Positions 10,464 to 54,544 of a DNA stretch of 64,000 nt are shown here, one piece after another. This DNA is from Candidatus Woesearchaeota archaeon CG10_big_fil_rev_8_21_14_0_10_37_12 (GTDB lineage Archaea > Nanobdellota > Nanobdellia > Woesearchaeales > ARS49). A program made the translations under genes and the position numbers. Location of the stretch: NCBI GenBank assembly GCA_002762795.1, contig PCYA01000008.1, positions 17,484 to 81,483 on the forward strand. Reading direction: 5' to 3'. Each line of letters starts with the position of its first letter. Within the stretch, counting starts at the first letter, position 1. The notes beneath the pieces were generated by a model that saw only the letters and a list, made by a program, of their open reading frames with translations, searched no databases and was not told the DNA's origin.

Positions 10464-11801
10464 ATGGATATACAAATAGCAGCTGTTGGTGGCTACGGTG
10501 AAGTTGGCAGAAACATGACTGCTGTAAAAGTCAACGATTCTGTTGTGATTTTTGACATGGGTCTGCATTTACCAAACTACATCAAACTAACAGAAGAAGA
10601 AATGGACAACACTACAAGAAACAGCATCAAAACACTACAAACAGCAAATGCAATTCCCCTTGACTACACCATAGAAGATTGGCGATCACAAGTTATTGCA
10701 ATTGTTACAACACATGCGCACCTTGACCATTTAGGAGCAATACCCAGACTTGCAAAAAAATACAAAGCGCCAGTAATCTGCACACCATATTCTGCAGCAC
10801 TCCTGCGCATAATTTGCAGAGATGAAAAAATAACACTGCCTAACAACATAATAGAAATGAAAGCAGGAGGAATAAAAAAACTCAACAAAGACCTAGAAAT
10901 GGAATTTGTACACACAACACACAGCACACTACAAACAATCATTGCTGTGCTTCACACTCATACAGGGTCAATCATATACGCAAACGATTACAAACTAGAC
11001 AACGCACCAGTATATGGAAACCCGCCCGATTACCCACGATTAAAACAATTAGGAGATCACGGAGTTCTTGCACTTATGCAAGACTGTATTTATGCAGGAA
11101 ACCCAAGAAGAACACCCCCTGAACAAGAAGCAAAAGACAAACTACGAGACATATTATTCAGAATACCAGAAAATGAAGGCATACTTGTAACAACATTTGC
11201 AAGCCACGCAGTAAGATTAAAAACAATTACTGAATTCGGGAAAAAACTCGGCAGAAAAGTTATTTTTCTTAGTAGAAGCATGGAAAAATACGCCATGGCT
11301 GCAAAAGACGCAAAAATTTTTGACTTAAGCCAAACAGCAGACGTTATAAAATATGCGCGAAAAATACGAAGAAAAATCGCAGACGTAATAAAAGACGGCA
11401 AACATAAATACTTACTTGTAGTATCAGGACATCAAGGAGAACCAAACAGCACCCTCAACAAAATGGTACACAACATTTACCCCTGGAACTTCAAAAATGA
11501 CCATATTATTTTCTCATCACACATCATTCCAGCAGAAATCAACAGAAAAAACAGAGCAACACTAGAACAAAACCTCAAAAAAATAGGAGCTCACATTTAC
11601 ACAGAAGCACACGTATCAGGACACAGCAGCAGAGAAGACATGCGAGACATTATCAACATGCTCAAACCAAAACATCTAATTCCAGCACACGGCGAAATGC
11701 ACATGATGGAAGCGTTCAAAAGCTTAAGTGAAGAAATGGGATACAAAGAAGGAAAAACACTTCACCTTATCTTAAATGGAGATCGGAAAACAATTAAATA
11801 A
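10464..11801 (+). CDS. rnj: RNase J (beta-CASP metallo-beta-lactamase exoribonuclease)
   Basis: A 445-residue protein from ATG 10464; the upstream in-frame TTG would run through the terminator and is rejected. Metal-binding HAHLDHLGAIPRL (motif 2) and late motifs VVSGHQGEPNSTL, HVSGHSSREDMRDII and LIPAHGEMHM are those of archaeal RNase J, a 5'-3' exoribonuclease acting in RNA turnover. Length agrees with aRNase J. CTTAAAA about 28 bp upstream is a possible TATA box. Confidence 0.9.
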   Translation: MDIQIAAVGGYGEVGRNMTAVKVNDSVVIFDMGLHLPNYIKLTEEEMDNTTRNSIKTLQTANAIPLDYTIEDWRSQVIAIVTTHAHLDHLGAIPRLAKKYKAPVICTPYSAALLRIICRDEKITLPNNIIEMKAGGIKKLNKDLEMEFVHTTHSTLQTIIAVLHTHTGSIIYANDYKLDNAPVYGNPPDYPRLKQLGDHGVLALMQDCIYAGNPRRTPPEQEAKDKLRDILFRIPENEGILVTTFASHAVRLKTITEFGKKLGRKVIFLSRSMEKYAMAAKDAKIFDLSQTADVIKYARKIRRKIADVIKDGKHKYLLVVSGHQGEPNSTLNKMVHNIYPWNFKNDHIIFSSHIIPAEINRKNRATLEQNLKKIGAHIYTEAHVSGHSSREDMRDIINMLKPKHLIPAHGEMHMMEAFKSLSEEMGYKEGKTLHLILNGDRKTIK

Positions 11802-11802
11802 A

Positions 11803-12037
11803 AATCCCAACCACCGCAAGCAGTAGGGTACAAGAAAATTCTTTGAATTTTCTGTACAAGAAAAGCAAAGCATTTCTGTGCAAGGAAATCATGGTAATTT
11901 CCTGCACACAAAATTGAAAATTTTGTTGTGCCCAGAAAATTTTTCAAATTTTCTCGGGTTTAAAGTTATGATACTCCATCAATTGTAAGAAAAACAAGGA
12001 CGAACCCAACCGCCCCAAGGAGCGGAGTATCATAACA
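11803..12037. repeat. Multi-hairpin intergenic element F
   Basis: The gap between rnj and pcn is a series of hairpins: AGAAAATTC/GAATTTTCT near 11832-11851, GGAAATCATGGTAATTTCC near 11880-11900, ACAAAATTGAAAATTTTGT near 11907-11925 and AGAAAATT...AATTTTCT near 11935-11953. An outer pair GTTATGATACTCC (about 11966-11978) / GGAGTATCATAAC (about 12025-12037) encloses an ACCGCC...GGAGCGG-like stem. Stem and loop sizes match the A-E repeats but the sequence differs. Confidence 0.6.
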
Positions 12038-12141
12038 AATAAAGTATTAAACTTTGATTTGGGAATGACTCTACTCCAGTATAGTAATCTATTTAAACTC
12101 CTGCTAGCCTAAAATCAACTGTTAGAAAGGGGGAAAAGATT

Positions 12142-15545: not shown

Positions 15546-15828
15546 AATAAAGAAAAACGCACTATTCCCCGACCTGAAGGTCAGGTATTTCGCTCAAAAA
15601 ATTCAATGCATTTTTTGGCGCCATAAAATTCTTAAGAATTTTATCAGTATCGTGCGTTTTTCTACAGCGAAAAATACATTTTTCGCGTACAGAAAACCTA
15701 AAGGTTTTCTTGTACAGGAACTAAAATTCCTGATACGCAAACAACTTCGTTGTTCGCGATACTTGCAAAGTTCGCCCTAAAGGGCAGGGTTTTAAACCCC
15801 AGTGCAAAGTCCTGCGAACTTTGCAATA
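15546..15828 (+). repeat. Modular multi-hairpin repeat, copy A
   Basis: Module 1 is closed by GAAAAACGCAC (15552-15562) and GTGCGTTTTTC (15652-15662), enclosing CCCCGACC-TGAA-GGTCAGG and AAAATTCTTAAGAATTTT. Then come GCGAAAAATACATTTTTCGC, GAAAACCTAAAGGTTTTC, AGGAACTAAAATTCCT and AACAACTTCGTTGTT. Module 2 is closed by GCAAAGTTCGC (15765-15775) and GCGAACTTTGC (15814-15824). Nearly every base is in an inverted repeat. It sits between divergent genes and does not encode protein. Copy B lies 390 bp away in the same orientation. Confidence 0.85.
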
Positions 15829-15890
15829 AGAAGTTGACATTAAAGAGAGAAAAGCCAAAAAATTAAAAGCCCATCAACCATACTGAGCAC

Positions 15891-19553: not shown

Positions 19554-19783
19554 AAATAAAGAAAAACGCACTATTCCCCGACCTGAAGGTCGGGGTATTT
19601 TATCGTGCGTTTTTCTACAGCGAAAAATACATTTTTCGCGTACAGAAAACCTAAAGGTTTTCTTGTACAGGAACTAAAGTTCCTGATACGCAAACAACTT
19701 CGTTGTTCACGATACTTGCAAAGTTCGCCCTAAAGGGCGGGGTATTAAACCCCTCTACAAAGTTCTTGCGAACTTTGCAATAA
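19554..19783 (+). repeat. Modular multi-hairpin repeat, copy C (internally deleted)
   Basis: Same family as A and B, but the segment holding the AAAATTCTTAAGAATTTT hairpin and its flanks is missing from module 1, so the first hairpin (a perfect CCCCGACC-TGAA-GGTCGGGG) is followed directly by TATTTTATCGTGCGTTTTTC. The deletion removes whole stem-loops and leaves the outer stem paired. Module 2 is kept. Positioned between a membrane-protein gene and hef. Confidence 0.85.
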
Positions 19784-22089: not shown

Positions 22090-22525
22090 TAAATACCTCC
22101 TTAAAGATCTTTTCTCTCAGAAGCCACCATCCACGAGTGCGAAGGGCTCAGTAAAATGGGCCCTCGCTACTCTATTTTTCTAATAGATACAGAGAGGAGA
22201 CGTGCTACTGGCTTGCGGTCTTTCGGTTATGTCCTCTCTTTAAAACTCACCTGTGCTTCTAAACATTGAAAGCCAGACTATTTTGCGCTTTCTATTTTTT
22301 GGTCGATGGGGAGCTTTAAAGAGGGGCGAACAAAAACAAGGCAAGCGCAAGGAGCACGTCCCCTCTGTCAAGAACCACTGGTGATCGCTCCTTCGTCGCT
22401 CAACACCAGTGGCATGACTGTTCAGAAAATCATAAGAAAAAATAACCAGTGGTTCTTGATCATGCTCGGAATGCCACTCGCTACAGTAAACCACTCGTGA
22501 TACACACTAGTGGCATTCCGACATG
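22090..22525 (+). ncRNA. Structured non-coding region, possible RNA (G1)
   Basis: This 550-bp gap holds no credible ORF. A TATA-like ATTAAATACC at 22088-22097 precedes dense inverted repeats: GAGGGGCG/CGTCCCCTC near 22320-22365; TCAAGAACCACTGG (22368-22381) / CCAGTGGTTCTTGA (22446-22459); and CGGAATGCCACT/AGTGGCATTCCG at about 22467-22519. CCACTGGTG can instead pair with CACCAGTGG at about 22404-22412, so two folds compete. CTTCTAAACATTGAAAGCC (from 22256) recurs at 54576. I looked for RNase P and SRP RNA motifs and did not find them; strand and function are open. Confidence 0.45.
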
Positions 22526-24290: not shown

Positions 24291-24446
24291 AAATAAAGAA
24301 ATTGCCTGAAAACTCGCTATCCCCGCAACAAGCTGACGGGGTATTACGCGAGTTTTCTCGGCTTCGCCGACCAGCAATTTCAGTCTTTCAAAGTTGGTGC
24401 AGATAACCGCAGCAAGCTGCGGGGTATTCGACCCAACATTTGAAAT
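24291..24446 (+). repeat. Modular multi-hairpin repeat, diverged copy E
   Basis: It has the layout of A-D but different stem sequences: outer GAAATTGC/GCAATTTC (24298-24305 / 24373-24380), inner GAAAACTCGC/GCGAGTTTTC, a CCCCG...CGGGG hairpin followed by the shared TATT, and CGGCTTCGCCG. Module 2 is TCAAAGTTGG.../CCAACATTTGA around CCGCAGCAAGCTGCGG and the shared GGGTATT. Both sides of each stem have changed together relative to copy A, which points to selection on structure. Confidence 0.7.
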
Positions 24447-24487
24447 AACAGCAAAGAACATATAAACTTCTTCACATCAGTAAAATT

Positions 24488-32130: not shown

Positions 32131-32798
32131 AAACCCACCTTAAACTCGTCGCAACACCGAAAAGCTGGCCAGTACTAAGAAAAACGCACAAATTCATCAC
32201 AAAGCCACGAACAGGAAAGCCACTAGAACACAGCATGGCAATTGCAACAATACTCAAACAAACAGGAATTGCAGACACAACCAGAGAAGCTAAAAAAATA
32301 ATACAACAAAAACTTGTATCAATAGACTGCAAAATAACAACAGACCACAAATTACCCGTAAGCTTCATGGACACAGTACACATTAAACCAGACATGACAC
32401 TACGATCAAGCATCACCAAAAAAGGAAAACTACAATTTACACAAATAGCAGAAAAAGAACAAACACAGAAAATCTGCAGAATAATCAACAAACACACAAT
32501 CAAAAACGGAAAAACACAACTCAACCTTTCAGACGGCAGAAACATTATCACAGACAAAAAATATGATGTTGGAGATAGCGTACTAATAGAACTACCAAAA
32601 CAAACAATCAAAGACCATTTCAAACTCGAAAAAGGAAACACTGCTTTACTTGTTGGCGGACGCCACACAGGAACAACAGCAATCATTGATGAAATACAAG
32701 GCGAAAGAATCTGGCTCAAAGAAAACGAAAAACGAATCGAAACTCTGGTAAAATTCGCATACATCATAGGAAAAGACAAACCAGCACTAAAACTATAA
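32127..32798 (+). CDS. rps4e: Small-subunit ribosomal protein eS4
   Basis: 223 residues with an S4-like RNA-binding region (FITKPRTGKPLEHSMAIATI, ISTD-like VSIDCKITTDHKLPVSFMD) and a C-terminal KOW module (GNTALLVGGRHTGTTAIIDEI). eS4 is archaeal/eukaryotic specific, a marker that this is not a bacterial operon. Confidence 0.95.
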   Translation: MKTHLKLVATPKSWPVLRKTHKFITKPRTGKPLEHSMAIATILKQTGIADTTREAKKIIQQKLVSIDCKITTDHKLPVSFMDTVHIKPDMTLRSSITKKGKLQFTQIAEKEQTQKICRIINKHTIKNGKTQLNLSDGRNIITDKKYDVGDSVLIELPKQTIKDHFKLEKGNTALLVGGRHTGTTAIIDEIQGERIWLKENEKRIETLVKFAYIIGKDKPALKL

Positions 32799-35511: not shown

Positions 35512-35534
35512 GAAATTTGAAGTAGAAAAACAAA

Positions 35535-35576
35535 ATGGCAACAAACGGAAATAAATTTCCGAAATTGCAATTTTGA
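35535..35576 (+). CDS. Mini-ORF 1 upstream of rpl18 (13 residues)
   Basis: ATG at 35535 to TGA at 35574-35576 encodes MATNGNKFPKLQF. Its first 10 bases (ATGGCAACAA) are the same as the rpl18 start, and the whole 42-bp frame is repeated exactly at 35599. It contains the hairpin GGAAAT-AA-ATTTCC. It may be a translated leader or simply part of a tandem repeat; no SD is evident. Confidence 0.35.
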   Translation: MATNGNKFPKLQF

Positions 35577-35598
35577 AAAAAAGAACAAGAAAATCAAA

Positions 35599-35640
35599 AT
35601 GGCAACAAACGGAAATAAATTTCCGAAATTGCAATTTTGA
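35599..35640 (+). CDS. Mini-ORF 2 upstream of rpl18 (13 residues)
   Basis: An exact copy of the mini-ORF at 35535 with a repeat period of 64 bp; it ends 8 bp before the rpl18 ATG. The preservation of ATG, frame and TGA in both copies is what suggests it might be translated. Confidence 0.35.
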   Translation: MATNGNKFPKLQF

Positions 35641-35648
35641 AAAACAAA

Positions 35649-46169: not shown

Positions 46170-46191
46170 ACCCTTTGATTTCCTGTGGAGG
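46170..46191 (-). promoter_or_regulatory. Origin recognition box (ORB), left
   Basis: On the minus strand CTCCACAGGAAATCAAAGGG followed by T matches the archaeal ORB core (CTCCACAGGAAA...GGGGT type). It is inverted relative to the right-hand ORB at 46427, as expected for Orc1-bound origins. Confidence 0.85.
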
Positions 46192-46239
46192 TTGTATTGT
46201 TTTTTGTGGGTTTTGATTTTACCATGAAAACCAACAGAA

Positions 46240-46330
46240 AAAATTAAAAAACCAAATAAATTATTTATTTATTTATTTATTAATTTATTTATTAATTAAT
46301 TATTATATAGAAAATAATAATAATTGGTTG
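46240..46330. other. Replication origin AT-rich core (oriC, duplex unwinding element)
   Basis: About 90 bp almost free of G and C, made of repeated TTTATTTATTAA-type sequence, lies between the two inverted ORBs and 160 bp before orc1/cdc6. This is the standard layout of an archaeal origin. With the ORBs it spans 46170-46447. Confidence 0.85.
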
Positions 46331-46426
46331 TTTTTTGACGTAAATCTTTCTATTTCTTCTACAGATTTCACAATAAGGAGCAAAAACACAAAAACACATT
46401 AAAACAAACAACAATAAAAACACCAA

Positions 46427-46447
46427 CTCCACAGGAAATCAAGGGGT
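46427..46447 (+). promoter_or_regulatory. Origin recognition box (ORB), right
   Basis: CTCCACAGGAAATCAAGGGG followed by T is the right ORB; it agrees with the left box at all but one base of the core. The G-run end and the CTCCACAGGAAA body match the euryarchaeal and Sulfolobus ORB consensus known to bind Orc1/Cdc6. Confidence 0.88.
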
Positions 46448-54409: not shown

Positions 54410-54544
54410 TTATTGCAAAGTTCGCAAGAACTTTGTAAAAGAGTTTAATACCTCACCCTTTAGGGCGAACTTTGCAAGTAGAAAAACGCACGATAAAATA
54501 CCCCGACCTTCAGGTCAGGGAATAGTGCGTTTTTCTTTATTTTA
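54410..54544 (-). repeat. Modular multi-hairpin repeat, copy D (minimal form)
   Basis: Read on the minus strand this is GAAAAACGCACTATTCCC, a CTGAC-CTGAA-GGTCGGG type hairpin, CGTGCGTTTTTC, then directly module 2 (GCAAAGTTCGCCC...GCGAACTTTGC). All the small hairpins that lie between modules in A and B are gone. It is the shortest copy and defines the two essential modules. Located between convergent genes. Confidence 0.85.

Follow-up and report, generated by a model that had tools for sequence, protein, structure and literature searches.

The closest described counterparts of the elements reported here are the PATEs of Haloquadratum walsbyi, which have no terminal inverted repeats, carry near-terminal palindromes like those of IS605-type transposons and are too short to encode a transposase (PMC3119063). 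In the available part of that account, ends-only versions arise by deletion of the core, intact IS200 transposase is scarce in the organism, and the palindromes of PATEs are targeted by other small repeats. The Haloquadratum repeat SMR-A, which is ∼110 bp long with prominent terminal inverted repeats, inserts in the palindromes close to the ends of PATEs and IS605-type transposons, and its mover is given there as unknown (PMC3119063). In IS608 guide bases located 5′ of the hairpin base recognise the cleavage sites, and the left flank retains the target tetranucleotide (PMC5934647). Archaeal IS200/IS605 omega-RNAs (PMC12558985) and palindromic repeats (PMC3733652) are the subjects of further reports.

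Here we examine a 64,000-nucleotide stretch of DNA (the window) from Candidatus Woesearchaeota archaeon CG10_big_fil_rev_8_21_14_0_10_37_12, in which an initial annotation recognized four hairpin-rich gaps (copies A to D) and considered them unlike any known archaeal MITE. This view is not supported, as the Haloquadratum PATEs are of the same kind. Both systems display palindromes near the termini, lack terminal inverted repeats, have IS605-like ends and are too short for a transposase, and ends-only copies occur in a second family of the host genome (F2) and in a relative (G003), as they do among PATEs (PMC3119063). As far as the published description extends, the family fits every PATE feature testable here and is a variant of the PATE kind. 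It differs from PATEs in its woesearchaeal host, its ATAA junction and the location of its end hairpins, often inside a long closing stem. It also differs in hairpin blocks that build multi-branched trees of up to ∼440 nt, and in residing in a genome in which no transposase gene was found. The elements resemble IS200/IS605 transposons, and IS608 in particular, in having hairpins just inside the ends, in inserting 3′ of a constant tetranucleotide and in guide bases at the hairpin foot (PMC5934647), but the repeats described here are non-coding and guide pairing has the standing of a suggestion. REP/REPIN repeats with RAYT likewise have hairpins between genes that carry a tetranucleotide at their foot (PMC6006769), whereas size, two distinct ends and a RAYT that was not found set the present family apart. 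Hairpin elements of sponge mitochondria are likewise intergenic, hairpin-forming and repeatedly invading, with no link to IS200 ends seen in the accessible portion of that source (PMC2800124). Within the text of the sources returned, the literature search yielded no description of such elements in Woesearchaeota or other DPANN.

As judged from sequence, the family comprises dispersed copies with fixed ends, bordered at both junctions by ATAA (once by ATTA). Its end module consists of a closing stem, a hairpin, GGGTWTTARACCC and AATAA; the core of this module is common to a tnpA-carrying element from the same GTDB family and recurs in further genomes, many of which have closing stems that differ in sequence yet pair. 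The family is not a new class of RNA. Copies A to D belong to a set of more than 25 elements in the host genome that have an end plan of the G003 type and are likely non-autonomous, PATE-like derivatives of IS200/IS605 elements; a TnpA supplied in trans would move them as single strands in folded form. A non-coding family of a DPANN archaeon that had been puzzling would thereby find its place in single-strand transposition, with a candidate enzyme named.

Architecture and distribution of the hairpin elements

The four gaps share one non-coding hairpin element, as the initial annotation had claimed, although its limits are here revised by 1–2 bases for copies A, B and C and by 4 for copy D, and the family (F1) extends across the genome. 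Besides these copies the window contains two more elements of the same kind, one of them belonging to F2:

11798–12042, plus strand: further element, ATAA followed by AAATCCCAACCACCGCAAGCAGTAGGGTAC... ...AACAAATAA, in which GGGTA is followed by a hairpin block; limits set by eye
15547–15829, plus strand: copy A, long form, composed of ATAA, a module 1 enlarged by two additional inner hairpins, a middle section of four hairpins, module 2 and ATAA
15552–15662, plus strand: module 1 of copy A, closing stem GAAAAACGCAC/GTGCGTTTTTC, containing the end hairpin CCCCGACCTGAAGGTCAGG and then TATT
15663–15762, plus strand: middle block of copy A, four hairpins with TAC/GTAC between them; missing in copy D
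15763–15829, plus strand: module 2 of copy A, closing stem TTGCAAAGTTCGC/GCGAACTTTGCAA, a hairpin, the core GGGTTTTAAACCC and the final ATAA
16219–16499, plus strand: copy B, long form
19556–19783, plus strand: copy C, with the middle hairpins and without the two inner hairpins of module 1
24293–24448, plus strand: F2 element of 156 nt, ATAA followed by AGAAATTGCC...CCCAACATTTGAAATAA, with a two-module plan as in F1
54410–54540, minus strand: copy D, short form, modules 1 and 2 only

Copies A to D each have the two closing stems, and whole hairpins are the unit of difference between copies. Comparison thus bears out the earlier statements that copies C and D keep both modules and that the copies differ by complete stem-loops. 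The core of module 2 is GGGTTTTAAACCC in copy A and GGGTATTAAACCC in copies B and C, while the plan of module 1 in copy A matches the end of the G003 insertion sequence (see below) that reads ATAA followed by AG. Copies A, C and D, folded separately in stretches that include 1–3 extra flanking bases, form structures far exceeding chance. As DNA, z-scores were −10.4 (plus strand) and −11.5 (minus strand) for copy A, −11.3 for copy C and −7.4 for copy D, and copy A folded as RNA gave −9.1; in each case 0 of 200 shuffles were as stable. The F2 element at 24293–24448 gave a z-score of −7.0 as DNA.

The host genome spans 1.35 Mb in 19 contigs and is 99.1% complete; its SecY (Pfam PF00344, E 7.7e-65) is 80% identical to that of uncultured archaeon LFW-252_3 and ∼70% identical to Woesearchaeota-named records. 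A BLAST search with copy A returned matches on many contigs and in both orientations, which is at odds with a single recent tandem duplication, one of the grounds on which the initial annotation would have regarded the copies as debris. At least 27 distinct left and at least 26 distinct right outer ends were read, these being lower bounds because 40 of 59 BLAST candidates were scored. The left count is derived from 31 matches by subtracting three inner arms, located on the other strand, and one chance match inside an ORF (window position 32177). The junction tetranucleotide is ATAA at 26 of the 27 left ends, and at 25 of the 26 right ends, where the regular expression demanded NTNA and some alternatives were therefore beyond its reach; the exception on each side is ATTA. 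Both exceptions belong to one copy, L030:1368–1548 on contig C9, the sole ATTA copy among the F1 ends read. The third base after the right-junction tetranucleotide is A in 24 of 26 cases, counted by eye. Near-terminal palindromes are present and terminal inverted repeats, also judged by eye, are not. The latter agrees with the initial annotation, which nevertheless made no mention of the ATAA found at both ends of nearly every copy.

The elements range in size from 74 to 440 nt, too short to encode a transposase. When 25 copies were compared with mechanically called ORFs most appeared to fall between them, although a mechanical ORF of 153 amino acids spans L035, and at three loci (L007, L013 and L015) the junction ATAA includes the TAA stop of the upstream ORF. 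Contigs C5, C6, C8 and C9 start or stop within F1 elements and C19 within another hairpin family; the repeats therefore broke the assembly. GC skew near the copies is negative at 17 of 23 loci, a bias so weakly one-sided that a preference for the lagging strand is not established. One F1 copy, L024 on contig C4, splits an MFS gene, the flanking ORF pieces matching positions 5–75 and 83–335 of MFS_1. This is one case of gene interruption, and the 56 relatives searched include no genome of the same genus.

End modules and the G003 insertion sequence

A profile search for Y1_Tnp (PF01797) in 57 genomes, including that of the host, identified the domain in 17, the host genome not being among them. 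G003, which is from the same GTDB family, contains two identical 544-nt elements (100% over positions 1422–1965 of L150 and L163), in each of which an open tnpA occupies the minus strand. The encoded protein matches the NCBIfam model transpos_IS200 (E 2.4e-36, 124.8 bits), with HLH and YIKNQ visible, and scores 19.4 bits against the REP transposase model, for which the cut-off is 80. The ends of the element are ATAA followed by AGCTCCCAATCGGGGCAGAGCCCCGGGGTATCC ... CTTTCGGGGCAGAGCCCCGGGGTATTAAACCCAGAAAGGAATAA. The end plan common to F1 and G003 consists of ATAA followed by AG...hairpin-GGGGTAT, and of hairpin-GGGGTATTAAACCC...AATAA. At L199 (contig C6 of G003) a right end of the IS200 type is followed in tandem by an ends-only copy of 50 nt.

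These ends have a narrow distribution among tnpA loci. Flanks were inspected at nine loci, of which L150 and L163 display the G003 ends. L149 (G041; identity 80% across 454 nt) carries a variant end, GGGGTATTTACCC...AATAA, with a left flank that is not ATAA, L164 (G043) shows one side only, and the G003 ends are lacking in the flanks of L146, L148, L154, L155 and L168. In a scan for which 30 loci were fetched, none of 23 further tnpA loci from relatives contained the exact core, and G003 is the only genome in which an autonomous partner carrying it was seen. The ends therefore belong to one tnpA lineage and not to the tnpA genes of relatives in general.

In the host genome no match to PF01797 was obtained at E≤10, tblastn with the G003 TnpA gave a best E of 0.07, and no TnpB scored above the cut-off. 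The transposase has likely been lost from this genome or was left unassembled; its absence from the assembly can mean recent loss, an unassembled copy or supply from outside. On four contigs of G003 core matches are found no more than 170 bases from the start of the contig, which we offer as a ground for a possible unassembled copy of tnpA. Searches of phage, plasmid, viral-contig and genome-contig sequences with the element or its left end, from which records of the host or very near genomes were possibly excluded, returned nothing.

A pattern for the core (GGGTWTTARACCC, a gap of 3–33, then AATAA) was run against 116 genomes, comprising that of the host and 115 relatives. It matched 23 times in the host and 64 times in 18 of the 115 relatives, totals that include some overlapping or chance matches such as L177 (host) and L179 (G001); the reversed pattern, used as a control, matched twice across all 116 genomes. 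Sequences flanking the core are mostly genome-specific and repeated within a genome (12 matches in G012, 10 in G091 and 9 in G003), the exceptions being G041, which has the G003 tail, and G012, the tail of which, CCCAACATTTGAAATAA, is the same as in F2.

Covariation of the closing stem was assessed in 22 hand-chosen end modules that represent 19 genomes, with the G048 relative among them and L177 and L179 left out, by scoring the longest pairing between the 45 bases preceding the core and the bases following it. The summed score of 202 exceeded that of every one of 20,000 permutations of partners (mean 116.9, s.d. 7.2, maximum 154). Ten of the 22 modules (F1, G002, G023, G029, G055, G056, G064, G077, G091 and G103) beat all 21 swapped partners. 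In F2, G012, G018, G043a and G048 the score is equalled by one or two swapped partners, and in F5, G003, G033, G041, G043b, G062 and G081 several swapped partners do as well as the native closing stem or better. Thus, in many families the closing stem is kept by pairing rather than by sequence, while in others it is short or absent. That closing stems covary between genomes goes against the second ground for debris in the initial annotation, a lack of covariation combined with a lack of transcription. With the core in 18 relatives, differing flanks and stems that pair clearly in roughly half the modules examined, the collection represents a natural mutagenesis of TnpA recognition. By eye, the full two-module plan of the F1 type is found with unrelated stems in G064 (L190 and L205) and in part in G077 (L184) and G023 (L183).

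A DNA search of 56 relatives with the whole element gave three weak matches among the candidates scored, in G048, G035 and G036. The match in G048 is a relative of module 2; its interpretation as an RNA with compensatory changes was dropped once the tnpA loci showed its core at transposon ends. The matches in G035 (L041) and G036 (L043) comprise inner hairpins only and were treated as chance or unrelated.

Proposed movement as single-stranded DNA and its alternatives

In the mechanism proposed here a Y1 HUH transposase (TnpA), provided in trans, would cut out and insert the element as a folded single strand. On the sense strand of the G003 tnpA, module 2 would correspond to the left end and module 1 to the right end. 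The element would start after TTAT on the module 2 side and finish with TTTATT on the module 1 side, the TTAT junctions being the probable places of cleavage, and a tetranucleotide resembling AATA, located 5′ of the CCCC hairpin, may serve as guide. The consensus F1 element has AATA in this position at both ends, complementary to TATT. The guide-like bases vary, being AAAA in module 2 of several F1 copies, including copy A, and AAAA or GATA in other families; guide pairing in F1 is put forward as a suggestion only. The presence of ATAA at both ends is compatible either with left and right cleavage sites or with a duplication. L030 leans to the latter, since its guide-like bases are unchanged despite ATTA at both junctions, for which target duplication is a better explanation than guide pairing and which the single-strand model leaves unexplained. 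It is because of this copy, the missing host TnpA and the 23 loci without the exact core that movement in trans is something we infer.

The initial annotation had offered three options for the element: an RNA, a single-stranded DNA fold, or a mobile element moved by an enzyme encoded elsewhere. The ends of the IS200/IS605 type, the fixed junction, the interrupted gene and the dispersal across the genome support the second and third options, which apply together, while RNA is not the reading favoured.

The junctions are also what would be expected of a MITE moved by a DDE-type transposase, which acts on double strands and would duplicate a 4-bp ATAA target. The two ends carry ATAA, in L030 each of them reads ATTA instead, and the MFS reading frame, examined by hand, is consistent with one retained TTAT. 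Such an origin is nevertheless unlikely, as it needs the same four bases at 26 of the 27 left flanks and has to accommodate the missing terminal inverted repeats (by eye), end modules that are hairpins with covarying stems, and a Y1 TnpA encoded by an element with the same end plan. The covarying stems, the stability of copy A as RNA (z −9.1) and the apparently intergenic position of most of the 25 copies relative to mechanical ORFs would also suit structured RNAs or transcript signals, such as terminators or stability elements, that are under selection whatever their origin. We consider this highly unlikely, given that one copy breaks a gene, content varies between copies and transposon ends have the same core. 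Furthermore, in the window Rfam at gathering thresholds identified one tRNA only, and the 56 relatives contain no whole-element match except the three weak pieces.

Hairpins in arrays, flanked by the tetranucleotide GTAC, bring to mind repeats of the REP/REPIN type, which a domesticated TnpA-REP (RAYT) disperses. To this we attach very little probability, because a Y1 protein was not found in the host genome and the G003 TnpA scores 124.8 bits against the IS200 model and far below the REP transposase cut-off (19.4 versus 80). Moreover, elements of 74–440 nt with two different ends are not single short palindromes, and their linkers are TAC/GTAC rather than a GT[AG]G foot. Tandem duplication followed by slippage, leaving inert debris, draws some credit from the proximity of copies A and B, only 0.7 kb apart, and from the tendency of palindromes to invite deletion between TAC repeats, as would be inferred here. 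Exact ends, occurrence on many contigs in both orientations and the interruption of a gene make this account scarcely credible. Group II introns, CRISPR, casposons and retrons were considered and set aside, as no matching feature was noticed.

Hairpin blocks and other repeat families

Hairpin blocks that start with CAA and end with TTGTA occupy the site GGGTA^TT of end modules at seven places in the host genome (L014, L015, L017 (twice), L018, L035 and L231), in modules of the F1, F2 and F5 types. This count excludes three of ten matches: L001 and L022, which are unrelated sequences, and L042 (G048), which is not at an end hairpin. Right modules free of blocks also occur in F1, F2 and F5, and G043 (L186) has a similar hairpin in the same position. 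At L025, L030, L036 and L037 other hairpins are found within the loop of the GCCCTAAAGGGC hairpin. Comparison of L025:1500–1700 with L036:1455–1655 reveals that an inserted hairpin common to both has its apex in opposite orientation, like a flipped tip.

The blocks would enter the end module at this one site, or drop out between short repeats, and it is by these routes that elements would grow or shrink by whole hairpins. A tentative extension, possible at best, is that the blocks constitute a second mobile layer of single-strand units that home to AATA^CCC (tnpA sense strand) and ride on PATEs. If so, transposon ends would grow into branched single-stranded trees while folding is still required for movement. 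The blocks resemble SMR-A, as described in the part of the Haloquadratum account available, in being short inserts of inverted structure within end palindromes, but differ from it in consisting of GTAC-joined hairpins placed at precisely the same base within the end module. The recurrent placement at one base offers a testable route to the movement of transposase-free small repeats such as SMR-A. The hairpin blocks and the covarying closing stems are the features that a specialist would find unusual.

Further families are built on related plans. F2 elements range from 74 nt (L245, ends only) through 156 nt (window) to ∼400 nt (L014), and F5 is recognized by the terminal sequence GGGTATTAGACCCAATGAAGAAATAA. 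F3 is a large multi-hairpin family with the end GGTTCTTGACA that falls outside the ATAA rule:

22430–22525 of the window: F3 member; other members are at L026, L028, L029, L038 and L039

Inner hairpins of F3 are in common with F1 and F2, and its linkers are GTGC/GCAC compared with GTAC in F1 and F2, a paired change. The window contains other repeats. At 35519–35646 two tandem 64-bp copies, 94% identical and with hairpins, lie before an ORF that belongs to a series of short plus-strand ORFs, and at 46170–46447 a 35-bp inverted repeat (83%) flanks a stretch rich in TTTA repeats.
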